DNA of 48,664 nucleotides from positions 1-48,664 of the IMG/VR virus record IMGVR_UViG_3300030109_003178; one strand, 5' to 3'. The translations under genes were made by a program, and so were the position numbers. This DNA is from a virus. Positions 1,396-30,400 of the stretch are shown here, in pieces. How positions within the stretch are numbered: position 1 is the stretch's first letter; every line of letters starts with the position of its first letter. The notes beneath the pieces are model-generated. The model was not told the origin of the DNA and made no database searches. It saw only the letters and a program-made list of their open reading frames with translations.

Positions 1396-2268
1396 ATGGA
1401 CAGACGGACTGCGACTACTTTTCTGACTGATATCTATAAGCACCAGACCAACGGTAAGTTGGTCTTTCATGCTTTTAGAGCAGACAAAGCGGAGACTTTC
1501 ACGGCAGACCTAGGAGGAGATTTCTTTGACTGGGTTGAGCAACGTGAGAAAGCAGGGTGGGGCATCCACCTACGACAAGGCCGTATGGCTACACAAAGTC
1601 GGTCATGTACTAAGAAAGATGTGGAACAACTGTGCCACCTCTGGGTAGATATCGACCGACCTCAAGACAAAGTCTCTTTTGTAGAGAATGAAAATGATCC
1701 CATGCCTACACCCACATTCCTTATTAACAGTGGGGGTGGTACTCATCTATACTGGCGGCTTGATAAGCCAGCTATGGGGATAGACTTGTTTCAAGTAGAA
1801 GAACTAAACACCAAGCTGGCAGACTATGTAGGTGGCGATCCAGCCCCCACGCACATTGCAAGCACTCTACGTTTAGTTGGGACTTTGAACCACAAGTATG
1901 ACCCACCTGTGGAAGCCTCAATTTTGCGCCATAACAAAGATGCAGAGGTAAGCATTGACAGTATGGCAGATTGGTTGAAGCGTAACGAGAACCCTGTCGA
2001 AGCCTTTGCAAATAGACTGATAGGGAATGTTCGACAGACTGTGGATTGGAAGCTAGTGCTTGATAATCTATCAGTCGAAGGACCAGCTAATGAGTTTGGT
2101 GGGCGTAACAACTGTGTCACCAAGTTGGCTGGCTGGTGGGCAAGACAGGGTATTGACCCTGATACCCAACTAAGAACCTTACAACACCATGGATGCACCC
2201 TACCTGTGCATGAAATGGAGAGCATCGTTAACCGTATTTACCAGAAGGAGTGTGAGAGTAATGTCTAA
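1396..2268 (+). CDS. Archaeo-eukaryotic-type (AEP/RepB-like) primase
   Basis: 290 aa. Three motifs of the AEP primase fold are visible: LWVDID with the metal-binding pair D85/D87, SGGGTHLYW at 112-120 with the motif II histidine H117, and STLRLVGTLNHK at 156-167 with the conserved R159 and K167. The enzyme should lay down RNA or DNA primers for replication. Its stop codon lies inside the start of the SF3 helicase gene (8-bp overlap), so the two are translationally coupled and probably form the phage primase-helicase pair. The ATG at 1396 follows a GGAGTGG element. Family assignment is from motifs; the primer type is unknown. Confidence 0.8.
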   Translation: MDRRTATTFLTDIYKHQTNGKLVFHAFRADKAETFTADLGGDFFDWVEQREKAGWGIHLRQGRMATQSRSCTKKDVEQLCHLWVDIDRPQDKVSFVENENDPMPTPTFLINSGGGTHLYWRLDKPAMGIDLFQVEELNTKLADYVGGDPAPTHIASTLRLVGTLNHKYDPPVEASILRHNKDAEVSIDSMADWLKRNENPVEAFANRLIGNVRQTVDWKLVLDNLSVEGPANEFGGRNNCVTKLAGWWARQGIDPDTQLRTLQHHGCTLPVHEMESIVNRIYQKECESNV

Positions 2269-3790
2269 TTTACCACTGGCTCCGCTCCCTCCTACTACTG
2301 CAACGGAGAGAGTGAAGGCCTATGTGCAAGCGCAGTTAGCACAAGGGCGCAAACCATCAATCATCCCTCATCTTATGGATGTAGTCGAAAGCATTGTTGA
2401 AGATCACATCAGGGCTAACGGCGAGGATATCCTATACACGGAAGATACATGGTTTATGTATCAGCCACGGGGGATATGGGTGGAGCGCGATCCTGTATGG
2501 ATTAAGACTATCATAGACAAGTGGCATCAGACAGTGATCGGCAAGACCCCAACGAAGAGTGTGCGGGGGGAGATACTAGAAGCCGTAATGCTACAGGTTA
2601 ACAAGGTAGACATAGAGTGGGGTAAGATCGGTAACATTATAGTTACTGCTAACAACCAAGCCTATGATCTAGACAACAATACTCCTGTCTCAGTACAAAA
2701 GACTTGGTACTTGAGGGAGGATAACCTGTTGGCTGTTGAGTGGGATGCAACCCAAACAGCCACCCCAATCTGGGACCAGACTGTAGATAAGATAATGAAG
2801 CACATCCCTGATAACGAGAGATCGGATGTTATTCAGCTTGTTGAGGAATGGATGGGTGCAACTTTAATGCGCCATAACAAACCTCGCGCCTTATCTAAAT
2901 GTTTGTTCCTATACGGGGAACGTAGAACAGGTAAGTCCACAATCCTAGATATCCCTAGACAAATCTTTGGAGAGACACGGGCTACCGCAGTCAGCCTCGG
3001 AGAGACAGAAGGCTTTGGGTCTATGGCCCTATTGAATAAAGCTGTCTGGCTGTCTGATGAAATATCGGTAGGCGAAGTATTGAATGACTCAGTAATGAAG
3101 AGGGTCATTACAAACGAACCGATAAGCATCAAGGTTAAGATGAAAGCCCCGATAGAAACCAGAGTGAATATGTCTGTGGGTATGGCTGGTAACTCGTTGC
3201 CTGTGATTAAAGATACTTCGGATGCTGTGTATGATCGGATGTTATTTGTACCATGCGATAGCGTTATCAGTAACGCAGAGGATGATCCGACACTCAGAGA
3301 CAAACTCATTGGCGAGCTACCCGCTATCCTAAATAAAGTTATAGACAGACTGTCTAATGTAAGGGCCAGAGGTTACTTCAAAATTCCAACATGTCTAACA
3401 GCTAAGACAGAGGAGATTAAGATTGACCAAGACCCGTTCAGCCAGTTCCTCACGGAAGCGTTTGTCAAAACCAATAGTAGTTGTGCGGTTGAGAACCCCG
3501 ATATCCAGACAGCATACAAAGGTTATCTGGTTAAGATGTTTGGGGAGGAACATGCTCGTACTACTAAACTATCCCCGACAGTACTGTCTAAACGCATAAG
3601 CGAAGCGTACCCGTACTCATCGACTGGTAGGACAAAACGTGGTACAGTTCGCGCCAAGTATGGCATCCATTTTACCGACCAAGGTAAAAGCTGGTTAGAT
3701 GCTGGCCTCAAGTTAGAGGACAACTTCTATAAGACAGATCAGCAAAGACTAAAGGATGCCAACATAACGTCCCTGACAGTACAGACATAG
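2261..3790 (+). CDS. Superfamily 3 (D5/primase C-terminal type) replicative helicase
   Basis: 509 aa from the ATG at 2261, preceded by AAGGAG at 2245-2250; the earlier in-frame ATG at 2189 lies deep in the primase gene and lacks a comparable SD. Walker A is GERRTGKST at residues 219-227. A hydrophobic stretch ending in SDEI about 45 residues later fits Walker B, and the following AGNSLPVIKDTSDAVYDR region, ending in an arginine, fits the SF3 motif C / arginine-finger region. Such proteins form hexameric rings that unwind DNA next to a primase. It overlaps the primase gene by 8 bp, supporting a shared function. C-terminal residues after about 420 are probably a DNA-binding winged-helix region (inference). 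Confidence 0.85.
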   Translation: MSNLPLAPLPPTTATERVKAYVQAQLAQGRKPSIIPHLMDVVESIVEDHIRANGEDILYTEDTWFMYQPRGIWVERDPVWIKTIIDKWHQTVIGKTPTKSVRGEILEAVMLQVNKVDIEWGKIGNIIVTANNQAYDLDNNTPVSVQKTWYLREDNLLAVEWDATQTATPIWDQTVDKIMKHIPDNERSDVIQLVEEWMGATLMRHNKPRALSKCLFLYGERRTGKSTILDIPRQIFGETRATAVSLGETEGFGSMALLNKAVWLSDEISVGEVLNDSVMKRVITNEPISIKVKMKAPIETRVNMSVGMAGNSLPVIKDTSDAVYDRMLFVPCDSVISNAEDDPTLRDKLIGELPAILNKVIDRLSNVRARGYFKIPTCLTAKTEEIKIDQDPFSQFLTEAFVKTNSSCAVENPDIQTAYKGYLVKMFGEEHARTTKLSPTVLSKRISEAYPYSSTGRTKRGTVRAKYGIHFTDQGKSWLDAGLKLEDNFYKTDQQRLKDANITSLTVQT

Positions 3791-4146: not shown

Positions 4147-4310
4147 GTCATCGCGTCATCATAAGTGTCATCATCTAAGCTATTGAAAACCTTTGGATGA
4201 TGACAGTGATGACGAGGATGACGGTGTTTTATTATAAGCAAATATAATAGAGTAAATTTATATAAAAAAGAAAATGAGGAAAAGGTGTCATCAGCGTCAT
4301 CACTGTCATC
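4147..4310. repeat. Iteron dyad 1: GATGAC/GTCATC hexamers flanking AT-rich DNA
   Basis: Three GTCATC hexamers with irregular spacing (4147, 4155, 4167) are followed by a symmetric element: GATGAC at 4199, 4208 and 4217 (exact 9-bp period), 64 bp of AT-rich DNA containing TATAAT, then GTCATC at 4287, 4296 and 4305 (again 9-bp period). The arms are complementary over about 22 of 24 positions. A second copy with the same plan lies at 12125-12240. Candidate replication origin or multi-site operator; it ends 85 bp before the resolvase start. Confidence 0.75.
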
Positions 4311-4395: not shown

Positions 4396-4872
4396 ATGAC
4401 AGACTATTCTAACACCCTTGTCGGCGTAGACCTTGGCACGAAATCCGGCATTGCATGGATACAAAACGGAAGTGTCTTCTCCAAGCCTCTTGATTTCTCC
4501 AAGGTTAGACAGATGGGTGCTGGTATGCGGCCCCTTATGTTACGAAGAGAGTTACTGTCTACGTTTGGGGAGTTGGAGCCAGAGGAGGTGGTGTTTGAAA
4601 ATGTACAGAAACATTCCGCCACCTATGCGGCCCAAGTGTATGGAGAATTGCGAGGGTGTCTAACCACTGTCTGCGAAGAGATGTCTATACCTTACCGCGG
4701 CATCGGAGTAACAACAGTGAAGAAGCACGTTACGGGGAGGGGGCTTTGTAAAAAGGAAGTGACCAGAAGATTTATGAAAGAACTCTGGCCCGACCTTTTT
4801 AAACGTAAGCTAACGGAAGATGAGGTAGATGCTTTGTCTATCTTAAAGTGTGCTATAGATAACGTGTACTAA
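4396..4872 (+). CDS. RuvC-like Holliday-junction resolvase
   Basis: 158 aa. The RuvC/RNase H-fold acidic residues are all present at family spacing: D12 in LVGVDLGTKSGIAW, E68 in EEVVFENV, and D142/D145 in TEDEVDAL. It should cut four-way junctions made during replication and recombination so that concatemers can be packaged. It is preceded by iteron dyad 1 and followed after 22 bp by the Cys-pair protein. The SD is poor. The start region GATGACAGACTA (4395-4406) also occurs at 1261-1272, so the putative small RNA there would be antisense to this translation start. Confidence 0.85.
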   Translation: MTDYSNTLVGVDLGTKSGIAWIQNGSVFSKPLDFSKVRQMGAGMRPLMLRRELLSTFGELEPEEVVFENVQKHSATYAAQVYGELRGCLTTVCEEMSIPYRGIGVTTVKKHVTGRGLCKKEVTRRFMKELWPDLFKRKLTEDEVDALSILKCAIDNVY

Positions 4873-5847: not shown

Positions 5848-6025
5848 GCGTCCCTTCTAGATGCACCGATGCGGCGGCTAAAAAGAACCCGATAATAGGC
5901 AGGGATACCGTTGTTTGCATATACATCCCAGACACCTCGCCATCTAGTACTATCAATCCTAGTACCATCAATGCGAACAGCATCCAGCACATATACGCGA
6001 GGGCCATGCTAATAAGTTTCATCAT
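5828..6025 (-). CDS. Small membrane protein, 65 aa
   Basis: Two hydrophobic segments are visible: residues about 4-27 (ISMALAYMCWMLFALMVLGL) and 38-53 (QTTVSLPIIGFFLAAA), separated by a short acidic turn. Its ATG overlaps the stop codon of the HTH gene and its end overlaps the HNH gene, so it is tightly packed into the operon. No family recognised. Possible roles such as superinfection exclusion or membrane anchoring are speculation. Confidence 0.65.
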   Translation of the reverse strand: MMKLISMALAYMCWMLFALMVLGLIVLDGEVSGMYMQTTVSLPIIGFFLAAASVHLEGTHDDNKS

Positions 6026-6435
6026 CAGCTACCCCCTAACACTGTCTGCAAGTCTATCAGTATACTCTCTATTGCAGATAACGACCTGTGCGTAGATGGT
6101 TTTGTTGTATCCTCATCTAATTGCACAGGCGTTCCCGTAGCGATAGACATAGCCCTAATCCTCTGGGCCACTTTAAGCCTCAGATAATCTGCTATCCCTT
6201 TAGGGACTGCGGTGCGTCCACTAGACCAGTTATGGTACACGCTTTTAGTAAGCCCGAACAAAGCCCTTAATTCCTTCGGCTCCATATCAATGGCTAACAT
6301 GCTGATCCTTAACTGGTCAGGCGACATGGTTCTATTGGTTTGTCTAGGGTCCTCAGTTGGAATACTTTCCAAAAACCCTGCGTTCCTACGGCTTCGGTTA
6401 AACCGTGCATCTAATAACTGGTCAGGAACTCTCAT
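6025..6435 (-). CDS. XRE-like helix-turn-helix protein
   Basis: I take the ATG at 6435 (136 aa); a TTG four codons earlier is possible but less likely because the 18-aa gene's stop overlaps this ATG. An HTH pattern is visible around residues 37-70: SPDQLRISMLAI, then KELRALFGLTKSVYHNWSSG, where LTKSVYHNWSSG fits the recognition helix. Probably a DNA-binding regulator. Candidate targets in this window are the 16-bp palindrome at 1320-1335, the inverted repeats at 11686-11738 and the GATGAC dyads; none is proven. Followed by the membrane-protein gene with overlapping stop/start. Confidence 0.65.
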   Translation of the reverse strand: MRVPDQLLDARFNRSRRNAGFLESIPTEDPRQTNRTMSPDQLRISMLAIDMEPKELRALFGLTKSVYHNWSSGRTAVPKGIADYLRLKVAQRIRAMSIATGTPVQLDEDTTKPSTHRSLSAIESILIDLQTVLGGS

Positions 6436-6488
6436 ATCACCCACCAATATTTAAACATGTTCACGATTAAATCTACGATCTTATCCAT
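6432..6488 (-). CDS. 18-residue peptide fitted between two genes
   Basis: Encodes MDKIVDLIVNMFKYWWVI. Its ATG overlaps the stop codon of the 176-aa gene (TAATG) and its TGA overlaps the ATG of the HTH gene (ATGA). It has its own SD, AAAGGG, seven bases before the start. The peptide is amphipathic and aromatic-rich, with charges near the N-terminus. It may be a coupling leader that carries ribosomes to the HTH start, or a small membrane-active peptide. Too short to support by homology; the exact tiling and SD are the evidence. Confidence 0.55.
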   Translation of the reverse strand: MDKIVDLIVNMFKYWWVI

Positions 6489-7755: not shown

Positions 7756-9828
7756 TTAAGCGGCTATTCTCTGCCCATGTTTTTGGCTTTCCGCGATCAA
7801 GGTATCCAGCACCCTAGTGGACAACTCTGAACCATGAGCGCGATCAACTGCTACCTTAAACACATGCGACACATCTAACCCTATGCCTACACCAATGGTC
7901 TCAACTCCCCACTTCTCAAGGAGTTCTGTAATGGAAGCGCAAATGTGTGACACACCGCCATCAGTTAGCACGATGACCACTTTACGTTCCTCTTCACGCT
8001 TCCTGATCTGCAACCCAGCCCATGCAAGGGCCTCTTCTAAAGGGGTCCCCCCATTAGGGGCCAGCTTGGATATGAAACCGCAACGGGCTTTCCAGTTCTG
8101 ATTGAAGTCCTTTAGCAGGGAGCCGCCTACACCCTCTACTCCACGTTCATAACCAAAGTCGTTATTGGTATCGGTTTTACCCTCTACAAGGGTTGCACCA
8201 TGACGGGCTTGGTTGCTGTAATAGCTATCGTCCTCAGGCTTTCCATTCCCGTCCAAGTATACGGCCCTTTCACCATTTGCGAATTCATACCGCCGTGCCT
8301 CTATCGTGGGGAATGATATGAGGTTGAACGGTACGCTAGCCTCTTCTAGCGCATCCCCTATCACCGTTGCGAATTGCTTAACGGCATGAATTTGAGTGGG
8401 GTGCATAGATGAGGAGATATCGCACAGGATGGAGACACAGGTTTTATACCCATCTTTTTTCCAACGCTTATTGAATACCGTCGTTGACCCACGGCGTAGC
8501 GCGGTCAGTTTACGTTGATCTAAACGTCCAGCCTCTTGGTTTTTCTTAACCCCATGGCGGTCAGGGTTGGTCAGTAATCGGCCCAACTTATTTTTCGCAA
8601 CGGCAGTTTGTGACAACATTTCCTGTCGGATTTTATTGACCTGTTTTACCCATCTTTTGTATGTGGGACGGGTAGGCAATGGCTCCCTGACTACAAAAAC
8701 TTTAGCAGGGTTGATGATGCCCACGCTGTAATCTTTACCATGCCAATCTTTTACGTCTGACTGGGTGCGGTCCTTGATTTGATCAACAAGGTCAGTGATG
8801 TCACGGCCCGTATCGTCAGGGATTTGATCATCCTCTAATGGGTTGGGCTTGGGGGCATTAGGGTTGCACCCTTCGCCTTCCTTTGTCTTGTCATCACTGG
8901 GCTTGTCAGGGTTGTCATCGACAGGCTTGTCAGGATTGCCCATACGCCCATCATCGTCAGCACCCTCAGGGTTGTCATCGACAGGTTTATCAGGGTTGCC
9001 CATACGCTCATCATCATCACCCTCAGGGTTGTCATCGACAGGCTTGTCAGGGTTGCCCATACGCTCATCATCCTCAGGAACAGGCGTATCATCAGGGTTG
9101 TCATCGACAGGCTTGTCAGGGTTGCCTTGTGGCGGTTCTGGCAGTTCCTGTTCGCCTACAATATCCCGAAACCAAATGGCAATATCTAGGATATCTGCCA
9201 CGCCTGTAGCGGCCTCAATTTTCTGTACCGTCAGATCAAAAAATGCTTCAGCGGTCATGGTCTCCCCGTCCACTTCAACATTCACTTGCTTGGCCCCTGC
9301 ATTGATAGATGCCTCAATTTTTGGAAGGCATCCATACAATGAATGGTAGGCTTTCAAGTTCACTAGGTATCCCCAGTTCCGCAAGTCGGTGATGGCAGGG
9401 ACCCCTTTGTTAGCGCAGTACACCGTCAACGCCGTCAGGGACTTTTTAGCGTTCCCGAATTTGTGCTTGGCGATTATCTCACGTTCCTGTCTAGGGTCCT
9501 CAAAACAGTTGACCAGTCTGGATACCTTTTGTGCCACGGCATCCTTCCAGACAGCTATATCGGTGTAGAGGTTATGCCCCATTTCATGGATGGCGTACCC
9601 ATGGAAAATATCTGCTTCAAAACGCTTTAGCAGTGCAGTTGCTGGTAGGAATGGGAAGGTGATGTTGGTGTGCAGTTTCCCTTTTTGATCATAATTCCAG
9701 ATCGTGCCAGCGGTGTTCCCTTTGGCAAACACATCAAGGGTTCCAACATCCACCCCAGCATTAATCAAACTGGTATGGATGGATTTTTGTAAACCGTTGA
9801 ACAAGTCCTGTGCTATTACATCTCTCAT
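7756..9828 (-). CDS. CobT-like protein: HExxH metallopeptidase-like domain plus VWA domain
   Basis: 690 aa. Near the N-terminus HEMGH (H81, E82, H85) is a zinc-binding HExxH motif, with acidic candidates for a third ligand at E110 and E115 (FEDPRQER). Residues about 239-345 are an acidic, proline-rich linker with four GNPDKPVDDNP repeats. The C-terminal region has a VWA metal-ion site: D470-x-S472-x-S474 (CDISSSM) and a later VVIVLTDGG strand. This architecture matches proteins annotated CobT or metallopeptidase/VWA that work with MoxR/CobS ATPases, and the ATPase gene is next door. Acting on cobalamin is unlikely in a phage with no other cobalt-chelatase gene visible; a chaperone-like remodelling role is more plausible. 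AAGGAAAACGAAAA precedes the ATG. Confidence 0.85.
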   Translation of the reverse strand: MRDVIAQDLFNGLQKSIHTSLINAGVDVGTLDVFAKGNTAGTIWNYDQKGKLHTNITFPFLPATALLKRFEADIFHGYAIHEMGHNLYTDIAVWKDAVAQKVSRLVNCFEDPRQEREIIAKHKFGNAKKSLTALTVYCANKGVPAITDLRNWGYLVNLKAYHSLYGCLPKIEASINAGAKQVNVEVDGETMTAEAFFDLTVQKIEAATGVADILDIAIWFRDIVGEQELPEPPQGNPDKPVDDNPDDTPVPEDDERMGNPDKPVDDNPEGDDDERMGNPDKPVDDNPEGADDDGRMGNPDKPVDDNPDKPSDDKTKEGEGCNPNAPKPNPLEDDQIPDDTGRDITDLVDQIKDRTQSDVKDWHGKDYSVGIINPAKVFVVREPLPTRPTYKRWVKQVNKIRQEMLSQTAVAKNKLGRLLTNPDRHGVKKNQEAGRLDQRKLTALRRGSTTVFNKRWKKDGYKTCVSILCDISSSMHPTQIHAVKQFATVIGDALEEASVPFNLISFPTIEARRYEFANGERAVYLDGNGKPEDDSYYSNQARHGATLVEGKTDTNNDFGYERGVEGVGGSLLKDFNQNWKARCGFISKLAPNGGTPLEEALAWAGLQIRKREEERKVVIVLTDGGVSHICASITELLEKWGVETIGVGIGLDVSHVFKVAVDRAHGSELSTRVLDTLIAESQKHGQRIAA
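8911..9126 (-). repeat. Four-copy tandem repeat in the VWA-protein linker
   Basis: Near-identical DNA units begin at 8911, 8971, 9028 and 9097 (spacing 60, 57 and 69 bp). They encode GNPDKPVDDNP followed by an acidic variable stretch ending DERM or DGRM. Copies match better in the GNPDKPVDDNP core than in the acidic part, and spacing changes by whole codons. Copy number may vary between related phages by recombination or slippage. Confidence 0.85.
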
Positions 9829-9876
9829 TTTTCGTTTTCCTTTTTTACTTCACTTGATGCTAAAGGTGCATCGTAT

Positions 9877-9900
9877 GCGGCCCCACTTCTGTGAGACCGC
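9877..9900 (-). promoter_or_regulatory. Intercistronic RNA hairpin with AGAA loop (ATPase / VWA gene)
   Basis: Minus-strand RNA folds GCGGUCUCAC against GUGGGGCCGC around an AGAA tetraloop: 10 bp, two G-U pairs that are mismatches on the other strand. It starts 14 nt after the ATPase gene's stop, the same distance as the hairpin after the VWA gene. A smaller GATGC/GCATC hairpin follows at 9856-9872. No U-run. Confidence 0.6.
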
Positions 9901-9914
9901 ACGGCGATAAACCC

Positions 9915-11423
9915 TCAGGAATTCCAGTCGATAATCCCATCACCGTCAGCGTTAGAATTCGCGTTTACCTCATCTGCGATTTCCTCGCCTGATGGCTCAA
10001 CGAATTCTTCACGCCTGATCAAGGCTTCGACTTTTGCCTGATTTACTTGTTCAGAGAACAGGCCCCGTCCGACTTCATAATCGTCAGGGGTGACGTTCCC
10101 TACCATCGTGACCTCGAAAGCCTCTTCAGCGGTAAACCCGTTTAGCACCGCCACTACAAAGGCCGTCAGGCCCCGAACTGATGGCATCAGGTTAGATGCC
10201 TGACCTTCCAGCGTTGCAGTCCTAAGGACCCTTCCCATGGAGACCACTTGCTTTGCGGCTGCAATCGTCACCTTGGTATTTGAAGCAATTATTTTCGCTT
10301 CAATATCCGCTGTAGGGGCCTCCACTTTTACAGTGAAGGAATGCCTATCGGTCAGAGAGGTATCCATCACCTTCGTACCGATAAACCGCCCGTCAGGGTC
10401 ACCCGTGCCATTGGTGTTATCGGCAGTGATGAAAATCACACCATCTGCCACAGGGACCTTTTCACCTGTTTCGGGGATGGTGATAGAACGGCCTTTACTC
10501 TCTAGAACCTGATTGAAGTAAACGAGGTCATCAGGCGAGGCCCTTGTAATTTCATCCAACAGGATGACCGCATGGGGTTGGCGGATGGCATTGGTCAGCA
10601 TTCCATCCTTCCAGTATGTGGACCCGTCAGGCGCGGCCTGATACCCCCCGTTGATTTCCAGCCTAGACATCGTCCCGTCAAAGGTCAGCGCATAGAAGGG
10701 CCGTCCCGTGATGGATGCGAATTGTCTAGCGGCAGAGGTTTTACCGCTCCCAGCAGGGCCATAGAACCAACCCACGAATTTGCCATGGGTTTGGTATCCC
10801 CCCAGCATTGCCAGAACTTTCGCCACTAATGGGTCCCACTGATAATGCGGATCAAATTCGTCAGCATCCCCAGCATCGAATATCTTCACTGGGATGGCTG
10901 GCATATCTTTTAACCCGAACAATTCTGGTGCGGATTTGTCTGCCTGTGCGTTCACGGCTTTGACCCGATTGGCAGGGGCCGATGCCGATACCGCTGGAGC
11001 GGTCCCGTCTCCAGCAACTGGAACTTCGACAATTTTCTCCACTACTTTCGGAGTGCGTGATGCCGTAATCAGTTCCGCTATGCGGCCTTCCAATTCCTTG
11101 AACGGCAGGGCCATCACTGCTTCCAATTCTGCGTCCACTTCCACAGGCTTTTCGGTGATGGTTTCGGGAACGGCCTTAGGGCCTTGGGGGATATCGTCCA
11201 CTGCAATGGCTGGCATTGCGGAGTGGATGGCAGGGGCCTTCGTACCTTTTGGCTTGCCATAGTCGGCAGGGTTGATGCCTACCTCAACTGCTAATTCTGT
11301 CAGTTGGTGCGCTGACAAAAGGTGAATTTTCACGCCGTCAAATTGCGGCAGGGTTTTGATGGTGTTCGACAGCACCGACTTTAGAGCCGTGCGCTGTTCG
11401 TTGGTGTAAGAATATTGGTTCAC
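9915..11423 (-). CDS. MoxR/CobS-like AAA+ ATPase
   Basis: 502 aa, GTG start preceded by GAAAGGAAAATACA. Residues 1-165 form an Ala/Pro/Glu-rich N-terminal region. The AAA+ core begins near 185: Walker A YGPAGSGKTS at 221-230, Walker B VILLDE at 286-291 followed by ITRASPDDL, and a sensor stretch GVIFITADNTNGTGD further on. It resembles the CobS/MoxR branch, ring ATPases that pair with VWA proteins. The VWA/metallopeptidase gene lies directly downstream in the same operon. N4-like phages also carry an ATPase/VWA pair. The likely role is ATP-driven remodelling of a virion or host protein through the VWA partner (inference). Confidence 0.9.
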   Translation of the reverse strand: MNQYSYTNEQRTALKSVLSNTIKTLPQFDGVKIHLLSAHQLTELAVEVGINPADYGKPKGTKAPAIHSAMPAIAVDDIPQGPKAVPETITEKPVEVDAELEAVMALPFKELEGRIAELITASRTPKVVEKIVEVPVAGDGTAPAVSASAPANRVKAVNAQADKSAPELFGLKDMPAIPVKIFDAGDADEFDPHYQWDPLVAKVLAMLGGYQTHGKFVGWFYGPAGSGKTSAARQFASITGRPFYALTFDGTMSRLEINGGYQAAPDGSTYWKDGMLTNAIRQPHAVILLDEITRASPDDLVYFNQVLESKGRSITIPETGEKVPVADGVIFITADNTNGTGDPDGRFIGTKVMDTSLTDRHSFTVKVEAPTADIEAKIIASNTKVTIAAAKQVVSMGRVLRTATLEGQASNLMPSVRGLTAFVVAVLNGFTAEEAFEVTMVGNVTPDDYEVGRGLFSEQVNQAKVEALIRREEFVEPSGEEIADEVNANSNADGDGIIDWNS

Positions 11424-11739: not shown

Positions 11740-12120
11740 CTAGCCAATTCCACTGAACCCAGTCGGAAACCCTTGGGGGATAGGGGTTAGCAAAGTCTGC
11801 CAACAGCTAGGCTAGCAGCCTCAGACAACCCGAAATGCTAGACAGTGCAGACAGTGTAGACAGACAGCCCCATGTCTAGCGGCCCTGACCGTGCAATGCA
11901 TCCCGGGACCCGGATACCCCGGCGCGAATTTTCCGGGCCGATCAGTCCAGACACCCTAGACAGTTTGACGGCTTGGCAGACTGAGCATCCCAAGACACTG
12001 TCGAACCCCGGATTCGGGTTTCGCCGCGGCGAGAATTGACTGTGAACCTAGTGCCTGTATTTTTGAGGGCTTAGAAAAGATGTTTAAATTTTTTTTATTT
12101 TTTATTTTTAGGGGGCCAGA
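11740..12120. other. Non-coding stretch with GC-rich pocket upstream of terminase genes
   Basis: No convincing gene in either strand. It holds TAGACA/CAGACA half-sites (11839-11878 and 11948-11962), a GC-rich pocket at 11902-11940 (29 of 39 bases G or C, several CCCGG units), a small CCCG/CGGG hairpin near 12009, a plus-strand promoter candidate at 12036-12063 and a T-rich run at 12080-12110. Lying beside the packaging genes, it could contain a packaging start site, but nothing proves it. Confidence 0.4.
12036..12063 (+). promoter_or_regulatory. Candidate promoter of the packaging/structural operon
   Basis: TTGACT (five of six -35 matches) at 12036-12041, a 16-bp spacer, then TATTTT at 12058-12063 (four of six -10 matches). 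It points toward the terminase genes and precedes iteron dyad 2. Confidence 0.45.
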
Positions 12121-12124
12121 AGGT

Positions 12125-12240
12125 GATGACAGTGATGACACCGATGACGCTGGATTTCTATTTAGCTTTCCCTTATATTATTAATAAATTAAATTATTAT
12201 AATTAATAGGATTAGCGTCATCCTCGTCATCACTGTCATC
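12125..12240. repeat. Iteron dyad 2: GATGAC/GTCATC hexamers flanking AT-rich DNA
   Basis: GATGAC at 12125, 12134 and 12143 (exact 9-bp period), 68 bp of AT-rich DNA with TATAAT at 12198-12203, then GTCATC at 12217, 12226 and 12235. The right arm, read in reverse complement, is identical over 28 nt to the left arm of dyad 1 (starting 4196). It ends 16 bp before the first structural ORF. Candidate origin or operator. Confidence 0.8.
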
Positions 12241-12256
12241 ATCAGCGAAGGACCTC

Positions 12257-12748
12257 ATGGCTAGACGAATTAAAAAACGTCCCGATCAGTTACAGAAATT
12301 AGATAGAGAACTCAGCAAGATTGAGGAAGAGGAGAACCTATTCCAACACCCCTCGTTCCTCGGTAACCAACGTCAGTTCATAGATAAGCTATATACCAAG
12401 CTCCCTTCTCTGGCTGACCGTCTTGTTACCTATCTAGAAGCAGTTCCTGAGAGGGTTATTAGCTCTAATGGAACCGTACAAATGCTGGTCCCCGAGGGAG
12501 CGGCTCTTACTGATGGGCAGTTACAGCTATATAAAATGATCCTTCAGAAGGGGCTACCTAACCAACAGCCTGTGAATATGAATGGAGACCAGACCCAACG
12601 GGCCGATGGTAAAGTGCATATCACTATCAATCAGAGTGGTCCTGAGATTGATTTTGAGCAGACGGGCGAGGTTATCCAAGGAGTGCATACAGGCCAAGCT
12701 AAACAGGTCGGTACTCTCTCCTTCAAGAAGCCAGAGGTGTTGAACTAA
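12257..12748 (+). CDS. Possible terminase small subunit, 163 aa
   Basis: Position is the main argument: first gene of the packaging block, one small gene before the terminase large subunit. The N-terminal 60 residues are highly charged and helical (KKRPDQLQKLDRELSKIEEEEN), followed by a helical LADRLVTYLEAVPERVI region and a polar C-terminus with TINQSGPEIDF. AAGGA precedes the ATG. No small-terminase HTH is obvious, so another head-assembly or packaging role is possible. Confidence 0.8.
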   Translation: MARRIKKRPDQLQKLDRELSKIEEEENLFQHPSFLGNQRQFIDKLYTKLPSLADRLVTYLEAVPERVISSNGTVQMLVPEGAALTDGQLQLYKMILQKGLPNQQPVNMNGDQTQRADGKVHITINQSGPEIDFEQTGEVIQGVHTGQAKQVGTLSFKKPEVLN

Positions 12749-13014
12749 TGATGGCATTTGTAATCACGGCTTTTGTGTGGACTAGTCATCCCACACTGCC
12801 CCTTGGGTTTATTGCTTCTAATCATATGTACAAGAGCCAAGCCCTGTGCGAAGCGGGTAAGGATGAGAACGAAGCTGAACTCATAGCTAGTGTGGGAAAC
12901 CATATCCTGACATCTACGAACCCCCCACTTAAAGTTAATAAAATATATGAGTTGATTTGTATGACCCCTATAGAGGTGACCCGTCTTAATACTTTATTAG
13001 GTCATAATAAGTGA
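12748..13014 (+). CDS. Small exported or membrane protein, 88 aa
   Basis: Start overlaps the preceding stop (TAATGATGG). A hydrophobic N-terminus (MMAFVITAFVWTSHPTLPLGFIAS) resembles a signal peptide or single membrane segment. The remainder has two cysteines (ALCEAG, ELICMT). Its final TGA overlaps the terminase GTG (GTGA), so translation is coupled. A small protein with the same plan lies in the lysis region at 47387. Function unknown. Confidence 0.65.
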   Translation: MMAFVITAFVWTSHPTLPLGFIASNHMYKSQALCEAGKDENEAELIASVGNHILTSTNPPLKVNKIYELICMTPIEVTRLNTLLGHNK

Positions 13015-14330
13015 CCCAAGAGATCACGTTTGAAGCTCACCACGGGCAACAGCTAGTTTTATCTGACGAACATCGGTTTATGACTCTGGTCTGTGGTAGA
13101 CGCTGGGGCAAGGATCACTTAGCTGTTATTAAAATCTTATCCCATAGCCTATCTCACGTTTCCCCACGGGGCGGTAAGATATACGCATGGTTAAATCCTG
13201 TTTATAACCCTCAAGGCAAAGAAAGTTTTCGCGTCTTTAAAATGTTTGCGGAGAGTGGAGGTCTCATACAAAAGAGTATCGAAACTCCCCCTATGGAAAT
13301 CCGATTAATTAATGGAGATAAGGTTGTATTTTTTTCTGCTGATCAGCCTGACAACCTTCGTGGTGGTCAGTATGATGGCGTTATCATAAACGAGGCGGGG
13401 CTTATCTCAGACTTGGAGGACCTCTGGGCAGGGCCTATCGCGGCTATGTTATTAGACAGAGCAGGGTGGGCATGGCTCCAAGGGACTCCTAAAGGTAAAG
13501 GCCCCTTACATAAGTTCTTTCTTAGGGGGCTACCCGATAAGACTGATCAAGGGAAACCTAATCCTTGGAAGTCTTTTAGGTTCCCCACCAAGACTAATCC
13601 TTTCATTCCCCCCGAAGAGTTAGACAGACTCAAAGACGAGCTACCAGAAGACATCTTTCAACAGGAATTCTTGGCTGAGTTCTTAGACAGTGGAGGGGCT
13701 GTCTTTAGAGGGCTTGATAAGATGAGGAGAAATAGTGAGAACACTAAATTATTACCTCAAGCAGACATGTGTCGAGTTGGTATCGACCTTGCTAAACATA
13801 CTGATTTTACTGTTTGTATTGCTCTGGACCCTGCCAGTAATGTTATTGGCTTTGATAGGTTTAATAATCTCGACTGGAATATCGTCACAACAAGGATTGA
13901 GAGATTCTGTTCGCGTTTTCGGGGAACGGTGGTCCTTGATGCCAGTGGAGTGGGTGATCCAATCTACGATAACCTTGCGGCAAAAGGCCTTGCTATTCGA
14001 CCAGTTAAGTTCACTAACGAAAAGAAAACTCAGATGGTGCAAAACCTTATGCTCCTCATTGAGGAAGAAATCCTGAGAGTACCTTGGCCTGACCATAGTC
14101 ATGGGCAAGACAACATCACTGAGCATATATGGCAAGAGCTAGAAGCCTATAGTTATAACATCACGGCAACGGGCCGCATTAGATACGAGGCTCCAAAAGG
14201 GTTCCATGATGACTGTGTGACCGCCCTCTTCTTAGCGGCTTCTGAGCTTGCTCCGCAGATGGCTTCCCATCACATGTACCAAGCCCTAGATGTAAATAGG
14301 GAAATAGGTCAGGCTTCTCACGATTACTAG
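13011..14330 (+). CDS. terL: Terminase large subunit
   Basis: 439 aa, GTG start overlapping the previous stop by 4 bp. The ATPase half shows GRRWGKDH at residues 29-36 in the Walker A position and YDGVIINEAGL in the Walker B position. The nuclease half shows GIDLAKHTDF with D259, VVLDASGVGDP, and HDDCVTALFLA near the C-terminus: the RNase H-like acidic residues. It packs DNA into proheads and cuts concatemers. Odd points: Walker A ends GKD rather than GK(S/T), and Walker B has N instead of D before the glutamate. Gene order (before the portal) supports the call. Confidence 0.93.
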   Translation: MTQEITFEAHHGQQLVLSDEHRFMTLVCGRRWGKDHLAVIKILSHSLSHVSPRGGKIYAWLNPVYNPQGKESFRVFKMFAESGGLIQKSIETPPMEIRLINGDKVVFFSADQPDNLRGGQYDGVIINEAGLISDLEDLWAGPIAAMLLDRAGWAWLQGTPKGKGPLHKFFLRGLPDKTDQGKPNPWKSFRFPTKTNPFIPPEELDRLKDELPEDIFQQEFLAEFLDSGGAVFRGLDKMRRNSENTKLLPQADMCRVGIDLAKHTDFTVCIALDPASNVIGFDRFNNLDWNIVTTRIERFCSRFRGTVVLDASGVGDPIYDNLAAKGLAIRPVKFTNEKKTQMVQNLMLLIEEEILRVPWPDHSHGQDNITEHIWQELEAYSYNITATGRIRYEAPKGFHDDCVTALFLAASELAPQMASHHMYQALDVNREIGQASHDY

Positions 14331-20112: not shown

Positions 20113-20828
20113 GTACATCACTTAATCTTGGTCAATCCAGCGATAGAGGAGATTTCTCTGGCGGTCTTTATCTTGCACAAAATGCTATGCAAGAACTAGG
20201 GGACGCAGAGGCTTCTTACTATATTACTGCTAACCAACAAAGATTCCTTAATTACGCTAATCGTGTAGTCACAGATGTAAATCGTCATCCAATGTTTCTG
20301 GATTTACTAGACGCGGCTTACGATGATCAGCAAGGTTCTATCACTGCTGATAGCCAGACCCTAGTTCTTACAGGAACTCCTACGGTAACCTTCAACACAT
20401 ATACACCAGTCAAAGTAGCTGGGGCTGGGTTTAGTTCTGAGAGTGGGGGAGAGGCCGCTACAACGGCTGGAGATTTGTACACTTTCGTCATCAGACAGAC
20501 TACTGACAGTTCTGGTAATACAGTCTCAAACTCTTGGAGATTAGCAGACACGGCTGGTGTTACAGTTACAGATGCAGTGGTTTCCCATCCTTATAAAACG
20601 AGAATAAAACGATACACTGAATTAAGCAGTGATACTTATAGACCTATTGACGATGAAGTAATGGTCTTAGGTATCAAGAGTTATTTTATGAAAGATGACT
20701 CTGACACTAACAACGCAGGGCTAATTACGTTAGCGCAAAACGAATATACGCTTTCAATGAATTCGTGGTTAGGCTCTATTGTTAATATTCAAGGGAACCT
20801 GACGGTAGAAATTAGCGAGTACACCTAA
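20109..20828 (+). CDS. Tail tubular protein A-like adaptor (T7 gp11 position)
   Basis: 239 aa. The N-terminal helical part (LYLAQNAMQELGD, NQQRFLNYANRVVTDVNRHPMF) is followed by a beta-rich insert and a C-terminal half with SNSWRLAD and SDTYRPIDDEVMVLGIKSYF. Placement between capsid and a large beta-rich tail protein matches the podovirus adaptor that docks under the portal. Assigned mostly by order and size. Confidence 0.7.
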   Translation: MSTSLNLGQSSDRGDFSGGLYLAQNAMQELGDAEASYYITANQQRFLNYANRVVTDVNRHPMFLDLLDAAYDDQQGSITADSQTLVLTGTPTVTFNTYTPVKVAGAGFSSESGGEAATTAGDLYTFVIRQTTDSSGNTVSNSWRLADTAGVTVTDAVVSHPYKTRIKRYTELSSDTYRPIDDEVMVLGIKSYFMKDDSDTNNAGLITLAQNEYTLSMNSWLGSIVNIQGNLTVEISEYT

Positions 20829-23527
20829 TGCCTCGTAAGCTATTTCCTTATGGCAAGTTCCTCGGACTAGAAACTGCTACAGGCCCTTTCAATAAAGGGG
20901 AGCGATATCTGGCTTGGTCTGAGGGAGCTTGGACCGATTTTCGAGGACAGCTACACAAAGGTCCCGGCCAGACTATTCCTCCAGCTTCCACTCTTCTTTG
21001 TAACCTAGATCACATCATCACGGGCAACCCCGGCCCTCGCGTCCATGCAGGGAGCGCACAGGAATCTTTATTCAAGGGGGACGGACATTACCAGCATATG
21101 TGGAACGTGGTTCATGTGGGGGCTGATAATGTCTTAAAGATTTATTTCGCAGGAGCCGATAGGGACGGGCAGTCTAGTAGTGTAAGTGTAGATAATAGTA
21201 CTCAGCAGCCTGACAACGCGTTTGAGTGTCTAGTTGTAGAAGACATGAAGGACGATATGTTTGGTCAGTTTGTTGCTTGGGGGGACGCTACAACTTCTGG
21301 GCATAGGTATCCGCTGGCCGAACACGGTGACTACGCCAATATTAATAGCCACAGCGACCCTGATGCTCTAGGAGGAACTGCCGCTGGAGCAACCACTAAA
21401 CGGTCTGACGAGTTCTTTAGCGAGTCCAGTTCCGCTACCTATCTCTCTTCGCCTTTCGTCCCCGTGAACCCTGTCTCGTTTAGGCAGAAGGTCTTTTTAT
21501 TCCACGAAAATGCAAAGACGGTCACCTACGATGTCCCGTTTACAAGCACGGTGCTGGACCGTCATAGGTTTCATTATGCGGCGGAATGTCCCACGGCAGA
21601 CCCTGTCACTATTTCAGCCAATACTGTTACCAAGACTGCCCATGGTCTAGACAATGGGGACCCTATATCTCTGAGTTTTGACCCTGCGGTAAAATATGAT
21701 CCTCCTACTTCTGGAGGAGGGGGAAGTCCTGCTAATACCAGTACACTTTTTACTGGGACCTCTGGAGAAGTGAGCCAACCAAGCCATGGTCTAATCGCTG
21801 GACAACAGGTCAGTTTCCATTCTGATTTTTATGGAAGCACGAACACAAGTTCTCTTCCGACAGGGTTTGCTGAGAATACAAAATACTATGTCGTAAGCTC
21901 GGGCCTCACTACCGATACCTTCAAGGTGAGTGCTACAGAGGGAGGAGCAGTATTAACTACGTCAGGCTATGCTACCGCCTACACCACTCCATTCATGTTG
22001 ACCTATTCCCGGCTCCCTTCTGGGGTTCACCGCCGCAAAACGTATTATGTAGTCAACTCACAGACAGACACTTTTCAGATAAGCGAGACCGTAGGCGGTT
22101 CTGCTTTGTCTGTGACAGGGACTGGTTACGGAGGGATCAGTATTCATTACTGGTCTGCCCACAATAAATTTCCAAATGGCGGGTTTGGTGCCGCTATCCA
22201 GAACCGCTTGGTAGTAGCGGGTCTTGACGATAAAGAGACAGAACTTCACATCTCTGCGTTGAGTAAAGAATACGATTGGCGAACAAACACCAGTGATGGA
22301 GATACGGCTTTAGCTACGGACGGTGCCATCATTGATGTTAAAGACCAGTTTTCTGGACCTGATAAGATCAAAGGGCTGGGCGTTCTTGAAGGGGACAAAC
22401 TAGTTGTCTTCGGAGAAAACGAGACCCTCATTTATATTACGGATACCGACATCAACCAATGGCAGATAGCAACCGACTTCCGGGTTGGCATCGGCCTCTT
22501 GGGTAGAAACACCATAGCTAACATAGGACAAGACCTATTCTTTTGTAGTCGTAGTGGTATCCATTCCATCAAACGTGCAGTCAGTGGTCTCACCCTTGAG
22601 ACTAAAACCGAGACCCGAGAGATTACAGACCTCTGGCTAAAACTAGTTGATGAAGCACCGAAGTCGGGCTTGGTCGATGCAGATAGTTATCACGACTTGT
22701 ATAATGTTTTTCCAGAACCTCATGCATGGTGGGACAATGATATAGGTCACTACACGGTAGCTTTCCCTACCAGTAACGCTACCAAATGGGCGCAGATCAT
22801 ATACGTCTATGAGAAAGGATCAGGAAGGGGAGAGTTCCGATCATTCTCCTATACTCCTGCTGATAGTCCGAAAAATAAAATGGCAACTTGTGGAAGCTAC
22901 TTCCAAGTTGGTGCTGGGTTTAGTGACGAGTTCTATTCCTCGGGAGTGGCACGAAACGTCATCGGCACCACACAACAATACTGTGCCAGCGGAATAGCAG
23001 GGGACTTCTCAGGTCACTTCTTTGATGTACGGACCCCAGTCCTCTGGCAAGGCCAACCTGATACTTATAAGTACTATAAACGGTTATTGCTCCGATGCGT
23101 AGTTCTATACGATCCAGACCGTCTGTACGCTGGGGGTGGAGGACTGTACCCGGAGTATGATGACTTCGATATGCAGTTACGAATTCGTGTGTTTGACGAT
23201 CTTGGTCAGCTAAAACATACAGCTACCGTCCGTCCTGATATGATAAGGCCCGCCTCTACCCACCTTGCAGGAACTGTGACTCAGTTTACCCCTAATGAAA
23301 CTAGGGCTAGAGGGGGCAATATAGGTGCTGAAGATGAAAGCAGCATAGGCACCTACAAAGATCAGAAGAACCCTATAGAGGTTCCCATGGCTGTGAGGGC
23401 AAGAGGTGTGTCTATACGTTTCGACAATGACACCACTCAGGCAGACAGCAATTTAAACAACCCCTCTTACCAATTAGCGTGTGGATTCCTGATACAGGAT
23501 TTTGGCTTAATAGTTGATACAAAGTAA
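20828..23527 (+). CDS. Tail tubular protein B-like nozzle
   Basis: 899 aa, beta-rich. The N-terminus (KLFPYGKFLGLETATGPFN...) and the conserved core EGDKLVVFGENETLIYITD, DFRVGIGLLGRNTIANIGQDLFFCSRSGIHSIKR are typical of nozzle/stabilisation proteins of podoviruses. It closes the tail and guides DNA exit. A pair of related beta repeats near residues 250-430 (TVTKTAHGLDNGDPISL / EVSQPSHGLIAGQQVSF, each followed by KYYVVSS/TYYVVNS and TDTFKVS/TDTFQIS) looks like an internally duplicated insert. The start overlaps the adaptor stop. Confidence 0.85.
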   Translation: MPRKLFPYGKFLGLETATGPFNKGERYLAWSEGAWTDFRGQLHKGPGQTIPPASTLLCNLDHIITGNPGPRVHAGSAQESLFKGDGHYQHMWNVVHVGADNVLKIYFAGADRDGQSSSVSVDNSTQQPDNAFECLVVEDMKDDMFGQFVAWGDATTSGHRYPLAEHGDYANINSHSDPDALGGTAAGATTKRSDEFFSESSSATYLSSPFVPVNPVSFRQKVFLFHENAKTVTYDVPFTSTVLDRHRFHYAAECPTADPVTISANTVTKTAHGLDNGDPISLSFDPAVKYDPPTSGGGGSPANTSTLFTGTSGEVSQPSHGLIAGQQVSFHSDFYGSTNTSSLPTGFAENTKYYVVSSGLTTDTFKVSATEGGAVLTTSGYATAYTTPFMLTYSRLPSGVHRRKTYYVVNSQTDTFQISETVGGSALSVTGTGYGGISIHYWSAHNKFPNGGFGAAIQNRLVVAGLDDKETELHISALSKEYDWRTNTSDGDTALATDGAIIDVKDQFSGPDKIKGLGVLEGDKLVVFGENETLIYITDTDINQWQIATDFRVGIGLLGRNTIANIGQDLFFCSRSGIHSIKRAVSGLTLETKTETREITDLWLKLVDEAPKSGLVDADSYHDLYNVFPEPHAWWDNDIGHYTVAFPTSNATKWAQIIYVYEKGSGRGEFRSFSYTPADSPKNKMATCGSYFQVGAGFSDEFYSSGVARNVIGTTQQYCASGIAGDFSGHFFDVRTPVLWQGQPDTYKYYKRLLLRCVVLYDPDRLYAGGGGLYPEYDDFDMQLRIRVFDDLGQLKHTATVRPDMIRPASTHLAGTVTQFTPNETRARGGNIGAEDESSIGTYKDQKNPIEVPMAVRARGVSIRFDNDTTQADSNLNNPSYQLACGFLIQDFGLIVDTK

Positions 23528-26740: not shown

Positions 26741-27445
26741 ATGCCTGAGTGGACAACGGTAGTAGATAGGTTAGGCACTCTTGCAGGGGGTATGCAACAC
26801 GCCCTTAATGCCCAAGAGAAAGCTGAAGCCGCGACTCGTTATGAGAAGTGGCATGACTTAGAGAAGTTAAATGCTAAGTATGCTCTAGCTAATGCTGTAC
26901 AGGGAGGTAGGAATTACAGAGCGGAATTACAGGCTTTGTCGAAAGGCCAACCTAAACCTATTACTTGGTCAGAAGATTCAAAGATTACTGATGCAGTCAG
27001 TGATGCAGTAACTACGGCTTTTACCAATCCTTTAGGGGATGGAAATGCTTCCGACCTCTTCTCTGGTGATGAACTTACTTCAGACGCTCAACCTTTGTAT
27101 GCCGAGCTTTCTGGAATGGCAGAAGAAGCCTTACGTTCTCGTCCTGATATTCTTAAAGACCCTAGTAAAGTAAAGGCGTTCCTTAATCAGTGGATGCAAG
27201 ATTACGCTCCTATTGTGACTGATGATGATCGTCCATGGTATCGGGGATGGTTTGGTGACCAGCCTAGTTATTCCTTTGGCGGTTCTGTGGGTACAGAGAT
27301 CAATAGGATTAGACAGAGCCTTCAGCGTATTACGTCCCCCTCGCAAAGACGTAAGGCTCTGCAAAAGGTTCAACAAGATTTATCTAAGAAGTATCCTCCC
27401 CAAACAGCAAGAATCCTATTCCAGCGAATATCAGGCGGCATGTAA
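26741..27445 (+). CDS. Internal virion protein candidate, 234 aa
   Basis: One of the best SDs in the window (AAGGAGGGCGGT) precedes the ATG. The protein is helical, with charged amphipathic segments (LNAQEKAEAATRYEKWHDLEKL) and a Trp-rich WYRGWFGDQ stretch, ending in a basic helix (SQRRKALQKVQQDLSKKYP). Its stop shares one base with the start of the giant gene, so both are coupled. T7 gp15 position; no motif recognised. Confidence 0.65.
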   Translation: MPEWTTVVDRLGTLAGGMQHALNAQEKAEAATRYEKWHDLEKLNAKYALANAVQGGRNYRAELQALSKGQPKPITWSEDSKITDAVSDAVTTAFTNPLGDGNASDLFSGDELTSDAQPLYAELSGMAEEALRSRPDILKDPSKVKAFLNQWMQDYAPIVTDDDRPWYRGWFGDQPSYSFGGSVGTEINRIRQSLQRITSPSQRRKALQKVQQDLSKKYPPQTARILFQRISGGM

Positions 27446-30400
27446 TGGCTGACAATACGGACGACCTCTTTATCAACCCGACAACACGGGCGGCTTCAGA
27501 TCGGCTTGAAGCCTCTAAGAAGCAACTAGAGGGGATGTACCCCGCTGGCAAGGCACAGTCTTTCTTAGATGCCACCCGTCCTAAGACAGGACCTTTTGGA
27601 CAAATTAAAGGGTCTGGTATGGCGGATGGTCTTGCTGAGATTGCCAGCGGGTTCCCAGATTATGCACCTCTTGCCGGGGAGAAGGGAACCACAGGAACCG
27701 TCCAAGGCCCTGATGATATTCAAGATGGTGATTTTACTGATTCTTTTGCTCGCGCCCACAGCAATGCTTGGAAAGACGTTGGTGTAGGCTTAACGGCTGT
27801 CCAAGGAAACGAAGACGATCTTATGGTATCTCTAGAGCAGAAGTACCAGCGGAAGGCGAGTGGTCTGGATGTAGACCCAGAACTCTGGACAGCAGAAGCT
27901 AAGACATGGTCAGAAGGGGCTAAACAATTCTTCACAGGGAAACACCGTTTCTTTGATCGGGATTACTGGGGGAATTTTTCTGGTGGACAACTACCTATGC
28001 TGGAAAGTATGGCAGTCGGTGCAGGGGTAGGGGCTAAAACAGGGGCTATGTACACTGCTTGGTCAGGGCCTAAAGCAGTGATTGGCGCAGGGGGAGGAGC
28101 CTTAGTTGGTGCGGCTGGAGGAAGTGGCGCACATGTATATTTACAGACCCTTGGTGGGACACTCACTGATGCATACTTTATGTATCGTCAGAAAGGATTC
28201 GGAGGACGAGAGGCATATGAGAAAGCTAGAGAAGTTGCGGATGTGGATGCCGCTAAGTCTGGCGCGATAGCCTCTTTAGCTGTCTTTGTTGCTCCTCTAC
28301 GTCTAGCTAGTGGTGCGACAGCAACAGCAGGACGAGCCACTGTTAGTGGGATTAGTCGCGCTGTCCCTAGAGTTATATGGTCTGCCCCCGCTGGGGAAGC
28401 TGTAAAGACAACTATTAAGAAGCAGTTACTTCAACAGACTCTAATCGTGCAACCATCCTTAGAGTTAGTGGATACGGTCACCTCTAATGTTATAGCAAAA
28501 AATTCTTATGACCCTGCCAGAGTTCTTCATCAAGGCTCTGTTGATGCCGTTGTAGGCTCCATCCTCTTTGACATCCCCACTACAGGGGGCGGGATGATGT
28601 TCCAGAGGTACAAACGGAAACAGGCTCTAGGTCCTAATGAGGACGGAACTCCCGGAACTGACGGCGAAAATACTTTTGTTTATGCCCCTGCGTTTGATCC
28701 AGAACCTGATCAATCCACTGCTCTTGTTCCTGTTGCGCCCCGTCAGTTGGAGGGGCCAAGATTTCAAGTTATGCCGCAACCTGACGGTACATTTGTAGTC
28801 AGAGATAGGAACGAGTCTCAGGTCTATGAGACAGGAACTTTCTTGGCCCCTGAGACCAAAGATCAACTTCAGTCTGGGCTAGATCAACTCGTTCAACAAC
28901 GGCAACAACTAGAACAACGAGCTAATGTAGCCGAAGGCCAAGGCCGTCCTGATGCGACTATAGCAAAAATCTACGAAAAGATACGAGAAGTTGAAGCTCA
29001 GATAGAAGCTCAACAAGCCTTAGTAGACGGTAAACCTACTCCGTCCAATGAGGAAACGGCTGTTGACCTATCCATGGTCTTTGATAATGAGGCGGATGCT
29101 CAAGCTGAAGCGGAATCTCGTAACCAACATGCGTCTAGTGAGTGGGCTAGTCCATGGTTCCCTGAGAATAAAACCAGTAGGGCTAGTTTTGTTCAAGAAC
29201 AGATTGAACGTCTAGCCGCTAAAGATGCAGAACTTCGTCAGACAGAGCCTGAGTACACAGGCGATGTGAAGTTTGATAACGCTATTAACTTCCTTCAGTG
29301 GTTGGGAGAAGCAGACGCTATTATAGAGCGGATCAATGCTCTCCCCATACAAGAACGGAACTCCCAGAAGAACCAAGCATTGTATGCGGATGCTAAAGAA
29401 CGCCTGTGGTTACTGAAAAGTCTGATGGACCCAGTGCGGATTGCTACTCGGCCTAACAAGATTTTCACCTCTAAAGGAGTAACGTATCGGGTCTGGCTAG
29501 ATCGTAATGGAGAAGCCTTCCAGCCTAAACCGGGGAACCCCAACTGGATTAGGGTGTACGATCAGACTAACAAAGCGAAGGGGTATCGTGATGTATCAGT
29601 AGCTTCTGGGGAGTTGGAGGATATCTCTGTCCCGTTACCTACTAATATGTTGTTGAATGACCCCGATCATCTAAAACGTATTTATGAAGTTAAGCGTAGG
29701 TTTGATGAGACCTTACAGCTTCCTCCCCCAGCGTTAAGACTGACTGATCAATCGGACCCCCGTGCGCCTGATGCTAGTGTTATTCAGACAGATGTAGATC
29801 AGCAAAAAGCAGACTTTGATGCCGCTAATGAACTAGCGGAACAACAGAAAGCTGAGAGGGAAGCTAAGAGGGAAGCTGATAACGAATCTGAAGCACGTTT
29901 TCTTGAGCGGAGTAAAGAGGTTTTAGAACGTAAAGGGGCAGAGGCCGAGGAAGTAAGCCCTGATGCAGAAGAAGCGGCGGCTCTTTCTCAAGCCTCAAGA
30001 CCTTTTGCCGTACCAGCGGCAGGACCCGACACTATTCTGGTAGGCACTGGGGATGTTAGAACTATTCCCATATCACAGGGTGCAGTCCGTAATGACTGGG
30101 AAGTGGACGAAGCTGAAGCTGAAGACGCTCCCGCCCCGGAAGCTGTCGTAGACATAGACACAGACGTAGACACAGACACACAGACAGCCGCTGTAAAAGC
30201 AGACGTTCCTTTAGAACTCTTGGAGTCTATGGATGCGGAAGAACTCGCCCAAGTAGATGCGGAAATCGCGGCCCGAAAAGAAGTGGAGCGCATAGAAGCA
30301 TTTGCCAAAGAGAATGAGTTGGAAAGCGTCTATGATATGGCTAGAGATAACGCCGCTCAGACCTCAACAGAGGGTACTTGGGACGAGAGTATGGCTGGAG

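Follow-up and report, generated by a model that had tools for sequence, protein, structure and literature searches.

A putative SaPI/Sfi21-type replication origin 3' of an SF3 helicase gene in an environmental phage, with a second iteron dyad ahead of the late operon

SaPI origins sit directly downstream of rep, and their iterons are recognised by the C-terminal domain of Rep (PMC7581432). At the putative origin of a cousin, SCCmec, the C-terminal domain of the helicase Cch2 binds three direct iterons downstream of its own gene, requiring a direct repeat of 23 bp that contains three copies of the 5-nt iteron AAGTG (PMC7581432); these 5-mers, if equally spaced, would have a 9-bp period. The Sfi21 element is described as an independent replication origin, extra copies of which confer phage resistance (PMC6356513). 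In the records of the Streptococcus thermophilus phages Sfi21 and Sfi11 and of Lactobacillus phage phiadh an origin is annotated 3' of the helicase/primase gene: in Sfi21/Sfi11 a noncoding stretch of 302 bp that follows the gene directly, with inverted iterons of 8-bp period around an AT-rich core, and in phiadh a rep_origin right after the primase gene, in which repeats surround an AT-rich stretch. Satellite phage P4 has two cis sites, ori and crr, that lie several kb from each other and are both required; their iterons are recognised by a single SF3 primase-helicase.

The DNA analysed here (the window, 48,664 bp) is part of a phage and carries two inverted iteron dyads, locus 1 and locus 2. 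The gene order at its start is a partial SNF2-like helicase gene on the minus strand, an AEP-type primase gene, an SF3/DUF5906 helicase gene, a 64-aa ORF and locus 1, followed by a RuvC-like resolvase gene, a minus-strand block encoding endonuclease VII, HTH, CobT-like VWA and CbbQ/MoxR-like AAA proteins, locus 2, the TerS-position gene, TerL and the virion genes. The features relevant to the two loci, some of them defined by the relatives G001 and G002 described below, are as follows.

1396-2268, plus strand: probable AEP-type primase with a PriCT_1 C-terminus, 290 aa (PHROG 3123, E 6e-13), so named by position and the PriCT_1 domain only
2261-3790, plus strand: SF3 (DUF5906) primase-associated helicase, proposed initiator (Rep) (Pfam DUF5906, E 4.5e-14)
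4147-4172, plus strand: array A, GTCATC at 4147, 4155 and 4167, aligning with three GTCACC in G002
4196-4223, minus strand: array B of locus 1, three GATGAC at an exact 9-bp period, within a 28-nt arm
4223-4286, strand not applicable: AT-rich core of locus 1, 64 bp, 80% AT, where melting is proposed
4287-4310, plus strand: array C of locus 1, three GTCATC at an exact 9-bp period
4396-4872, plus strand: RuvC-like resolvase (PHROG 159, E 4e-18), 3' of locus 1, order kept in G001 and G002
12123-12252, strand not applicable: insertion carrying locus 2, about 130 bp, from alignment with G002, L011 and L012
12125-12148, minus strand: left array of locus 2, three GATGAC at an exact 9-bp period
12149-12216, strand not applicable: AT-rich core of locus 2, 68 bp, 79% AT, with -10-like TATATT (12174) and TATAAT (12198)
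12216-12243, plus strand: right arm of locus 2, three GTCATC, perfect reverse complement of 4196-4223
12257-12748, plus strand: TerS-position gene, 163 aa, first of the late operon, named from position and conservation only
13011-14330: TerL (PHROG 2, E 3e-35)

The primase scored 21.2 bits against Pfam PriCT_1, for which the cutoff is 21.1. Among proteins of solved structure the helicase has one sequence relative, the SaPI5 primase-helicase (7ola/7om0), which it matched at E 5e-11 against PDB 7ola and at E 7e-11 in a profile match over residues 210-403, and the staphylococcal element PI-Sepi-HH2 was among its top phage-database matches by E-value (1e-18). The C-terminal ~100 aa gave a winged-helix-like predicted model (pLDDT 73), with which a fold search returned no significant match (best E 0.24), so the assignment of this part to DNA binding is by analogy with Cch2 and the SaPIs. 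An AlphaFold model of the full-length helicase, from 4 sequences, was of poor quality. The arrays of locus 1 start 357 bp past the helicase stop with the 64-aa ORF between, an order also found in G001.

A sequence-only reading of the window had described, at each locus, three GATGAC hexamers facing three GTCATC hexamers at exactly 9 bp across AT-rich DNA, and this description is correct to the base, as are the sizes given for the spacers (64 bp at locus 1 and 68 bp at locus 2), the perfect 28-nt arm shared in inverted orientation between loci 8 kb apart, and the position of both dyads upstream of plus-strand units, the RuvC-like gene at 4396 and the TerS-position gene at 12257. Within the 48,664-bp record, GATGAC triples of exact 9-bp period are confined to 4199/4208/4217 and 12125/12134/12143 and the corresponding GTCATC triples to 4287/4296/4305 and 12217/12226/12235, these four 24-nt triples being the sole matches to the pattern GATGACNNNGATGACNNNGATGAC. 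The cores of loci 1 and 2 are 79.7% and 79.4% AT, against 53% for the window, and equally AT-rich stretches make up 0.07% and 0.04% of same-size windows, respectively. Comparison of the two cores revealed no clear sequence homology, which fits a need for meltability and not for sequence. Just left of locus 1 lies the third GTCATC array (A), with 8- and 12-bp steps, which has no counterpart at locus 2. The dyads were also recovered by a de novo scan blind to GATGAC (7-mer iterons repeated every 8-11 bp, up to one mismatch allowed, and an inverted partner at a distance of 20-110 bp), with 13 supporting pairs at locus 1 and nine at locus 2; in 200 order-2 Markov copies simulated from the window, the same scan found one pair at most. 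Two further weak dyads, one a single pair at window position 1036 and the other a terminator-like hairpin at G002 position 36173, were dismissed as noise. GC skew of the window tracks gene direction and carries little information on the origin.

A search with the full-dyad pattern of viral_contigs (2.9 million contigs) returned one contig, G001, matched twice, at both equivalent places. This near relative (59,850 bp) has a helicase 98% identical to that of the window, and the part of it absent from the window appears, by sequence reading, to encode A-family DNA polymerase-like and ribonucleotide reductase-like proteins, among others. Both dyads are carried by two genomes only, the window and G001. 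Recurrence of the GATGAC arrays in related phages, suggested earlier as a check, was confirmed at both loci of G001, but the exact GATGAC/GTCATC dyad letters are absent from the more diverged G002 (helicase 72% and TerL 89% identical to those of the window). The G002 region upstream of RuvC aligns with locus 1 array by array, with A, B and C in place as ACCGTCACCAGCGTCACCGTGCGTCACC, TGACGGCGGTGACGGTAAGGACG and GCGTCACTTGCGTCCTTGGTGTCC, respectively, mostly at a 9-bp step and with an AT-rich core, the iteron letters having moved from GTCATC towards GTCACC. Such a shift would look like a binding site drifting with its protein. Between the 64-aa ORF and the arrays, G002 has an extra minus-strand ORF with an HTH-like stretch (20590-21525, L048 590-1525), absent from the window and G001; the end of L051 appears to begin the same insertion.

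A panel of 19 helicase loci was assembled from tblastn matches, picked by eye for diversity and counted irrespective of kinship. Eight of these loci have an inverted iteron dyad of 8-11-bp period no more than 250 bp 3' of the helicase, and two dyads lie elsewhere, a division with P of about 6e-10 if placement is assumed to be uniform. The strict scan found no dyad 3' of the helicase at the other 11 (five Vibrio phages, Seuss, SAJS1, DS11, Ef4995, phiadh and PLM26), although it missed 10-11-bp repeats that are there by eye in phiadh and PLM26. The five Vibrio loci yielded one dyad in total, 2.1 kb from the helicase, and three Vibrio genomes scanned whole yielded none, so the placement of a dyad 3' of the helicase is not universal. 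In whole-genome scans of Javan626, Javan389, Pan4, A9Y, Mae-JY28 and Javan729 the sole dyad is found 3' of the helicase at a distance of 34-130 bp, and Sfi11 has one there together with a second copy. PI-Sepi-HH2 shows an A / B (9-bp) / AT-rich / C layout directly 3' of its helicase gene. A 9-bp step is also seen in Pan4, where three iterons stand opposite three, and in Javan729; steps are mainly 8 bp in Javan626, Javan389, Sfi11 and Mae-JY28.

Locus 1 shares with the SaPI/PICI origins (SaPI5-type, PI-Sepi-HH2) a homologous SF3 primase-helicase, an origin position 3' of the rep gene, and short inverted iteron arrays flanking an AT-rich region, with the 9-bp period in PI-Sepi-HH2. It differs from them in its iteron (GATGAC, theirs being AAGACA-type), in having primase and helicase as two genes, in being borne by a ~60-kb environmental phage, in the 64-aa ORF between rep and ori, and in the second dyad at the late operon. 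The iterons of Sfi21/Sfi11 are of the TTAGTTAC type, and those of phiadh are GTGTAGGGTT / AACTATACAC repeats of 10-11-bp period. Cch2 binds one direct-repeat array, and its partner is an A-family polymerase-primase, not an AEP. Near-copies of the origin are also found in Sfi11 (35343 and 37073) and as two matches in Sfi21, but the second copy in Sfi11 has the same orientation, 1.7 kb off, whereas that of the window is inverted and ahead of TerS. The annotated Sfi11 origin and its near-copy downstream correspond to L067 3467-3575 and 5197-5305, and the origin used as a query had 184 matches across 136 records of Streptococcus phages, among them Sfi21 and other S. thermophilus phages with two places each.

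The reading that we favour for locus 1 is a SaPI/Sfi21-type origin serving an SF3 primase-helicase replicon. An origin with iterons flanking a meltable core, near an AEP primase and an SF3 helicase, was one of the options raised by the sequence-only reading, and for locus 1 it is well supported because the arrays are conserved one by one in a diverged relative and because the same architecture lies 3' of homologous helicases, three of them with annotated origins. We consider it highly probable that locus 1 (4147-4310) is the origin of the AEP primase and SF3 helicase and, jointly, that locus 2 is a second set of sites, likely an auxiliary origin. From the sequence, position and conservation of the arrays and the recurrence of their architecture behind homologous helicases, we infer protein binding, melting and origin activity as follows. 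The SF3 helicase would recognise the 9-bp-spaced iterons, probably via its C-terminal winged-helix domain, and assemble on the inverted arrays that flank the AT-rich core; melting of this core would then allow the helicase to load, the primase to prime and the phage DNA polymerase to extend. This reading places a SaPI/Sfi21-type origin in an uncultivated group of ~60-kb environmental phages, and suggests a rule for finding origins in metagenomic phages, namely inverted iterons of 8-11-bp period with an AT-rich core 3' of DUF5906-type SF3 genes.

The two loci could instead act as long RNA hairpins in the RuvC and TerS leaders, controlling translation or transcript stability. The predicted folds are very stable (z -6.7 at locus 1 and -7.0 at locus 2), and at locus 2 the right arm reaches up to the ribosome-binding site. 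This option, also raised earlier, is weakened by unlike pairing at the two loci, predicted as A with B at locus 1 and left with right arm at locus 2, and by a much lower stability in G002 (z only -2.7). Inverted arrays pair by construction, moreover, and a hairpin has no need of an exact 9-bp direct periodicity, so we regard this explanation as very unlikely.

Locus 2 stands 8 kb from locus 1, inverted, ahead of the TerS-position gene and not 3' of a helicase. G002, L011 and L012 align cleanly across the site and are shorter by about 130 bp, and no dyad was found at this position in any of 32 other TerS relatives scanned; the simplest reading of these alignments is that locus 2 was gained in the line leading to the window and G001. 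Its absence from every relative except G001 makes it dispensable for the wider group, unlike the sites of P4, both of which are needed. Based on the shared iterons, locus 2 is read as a set of putative binding sites, and we infer that it is most likely bound by the same initiator and serves as an auxiliary origin. Second origin-like copies have precedents in Sfi11 and Sfi21, and staphylococcal islands and dairy phages are known to have origins of this kind; the unusual part is the location of the misplaced copy, directly ahead of the late operon.

The insertion stands between a conserved late leader and the TerS-position gene. In each of the 32 relatives that lack the insert, TATAAT, TATATT or TATAAA occurs within 80 nt of this gene, whereas the window has no -10-like hexamer before the insert and two within the locus 2 core. 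As its core has the sole -10-like hexamers before the late genes, locus 2 may in addition make late transcription respond to binding of the initiator. It is conceivable, if somewhat doubtful, that the core of an inserted origin module took over the late promoter and that occupancy of the iterons by the helicase times late transcription; -10-like words being common in AT-rich DNA, we offer promoter capture as a hypothesis. If true, a direct switch from replication to the late genes (packaging and virion) would have been made from a second origin, and the dyad ahead of the terminase genes is a concrete case of an origin module possibly doubling as a late-gene control element. Scans for promoter and terminator consensus sequences gave nothing in locus 1 and weak matches near locus 2. 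A noncoding block upstream of the TerS-position gene (11990-12085, GAACCTAGTGCCT..TTTTTGAGGGCTT) is conserved in relatives with as little as 58% identity in the TerS-position protein and is a candidate late promoter or packaging site.

The same hexamers bear on a purely regulatory role, in which a phage regulator such as the 140-aa HTH protein would bind the arrays as operators and switch the RuvC unit and the late operon, with replication starting elsewhere. Both loci lie directly upstream of plus-strand genes and have TATAAT in their cores (4243 and 12198), and the HTH gene (6025-6447) sits between them and is 69% identical in G002. Operators alone leave unexplained both the same layout 3' of homologous SF3 genes among unrelated neighbours and the annotated origins, and TATAAT-like words are frequent by chance at 79% AT. 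We judge this explanation unlikely overall, with the option still live at locus 2 given that every -10-like hexamer preceding the late operon is inside its core.

Another possibility is that locus 2 is a packaging site (pac, bound by TerS) and not a replication site, given its place directly upstream of the TerS-position gene. GATGAC dyads are found upstream of TerS also in the unrelated phages G007, G008 and L040, which is a point against the SF3-origin reading. In G007 this dyad is the only one, an AEP-TOTE primase is present and no SF3 gene was found; these three were therefore left out of the support for the SF3 model. A pac function, however, fits poorly with the absence of the dyad from 32 relatives whose TerS-position protein is conserved and with the presence of the same iterons at locus 1, 8 kb away and behind the helicase, and is in our view quite improbable.

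Locus 2, or both loci, could also be a short palindromic mobile element of the MITE type, as the ~130-bp insertion of locus 2 is clean, has inverted ends and is confined to two genomes. An element of this kind is at odds with the two copies per genome and none in viral_contigs outside G001 by the full-dyad pattern, and with the lack of a consistent target-site duplication (a GAAGG pair in the window is not kept in G001). Locus 1 is, besides, orthologous in G002, with its third array beyond any terminal-repeat boundary, and the cores are not clearly homologous. We therefore hold a mobile element to be extremely unlikely.

The searches also returned GATGAC and GTCATC repeats elsewhere. In unrelated phages, inverted GTCATC/GATGAC arrays with 9- and 10-bp periods, in the iteron letters of the window, lie upstream of TerS at L018 1824-1909, L040 1146-1221 and L017 51-136. 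One-arm pattern matches in L015 and L016 proved to be coding Asp-rich repeats, and matches in a Prevotellaceae MAG (L019-L021), an unrelated genome, were rejected as tandem GATGAC/GTCATC runs. These tandem palindromes, at L019 1474-1565, L020 3646-3755 and L021 4918-5009, start near TTAGCACACA and look like a small repeated palindromic element.

Further observations concern the coding regions of these phages. The adjoining genes for the CobT-like VWA and CbbQ/MoxR-like AAA ATPase proteins (7756-11423) are kept as a pair in G001 and G002, the former corresponding to two ORFs in G002. Repeats of ~57 nt within the CobT-like VWA gene (8891-9133) encode Asp-rich repeats in a pattern unlike that of G001. 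One virion-region protein of 3,314 aa (27445-37389) has weak family matches over short stretches. Recurring GTCT/AGAC runs (TTTGTCTGTCTGTCTGTCTG) are found in G002 (L008 5418-5446, 8851-8875, 15938-15963, 18138-18163 and 19934-19990), several of them directly 5' of genes and beside ribosome-binding sites, and are possibly a regulatory motif of the genus.
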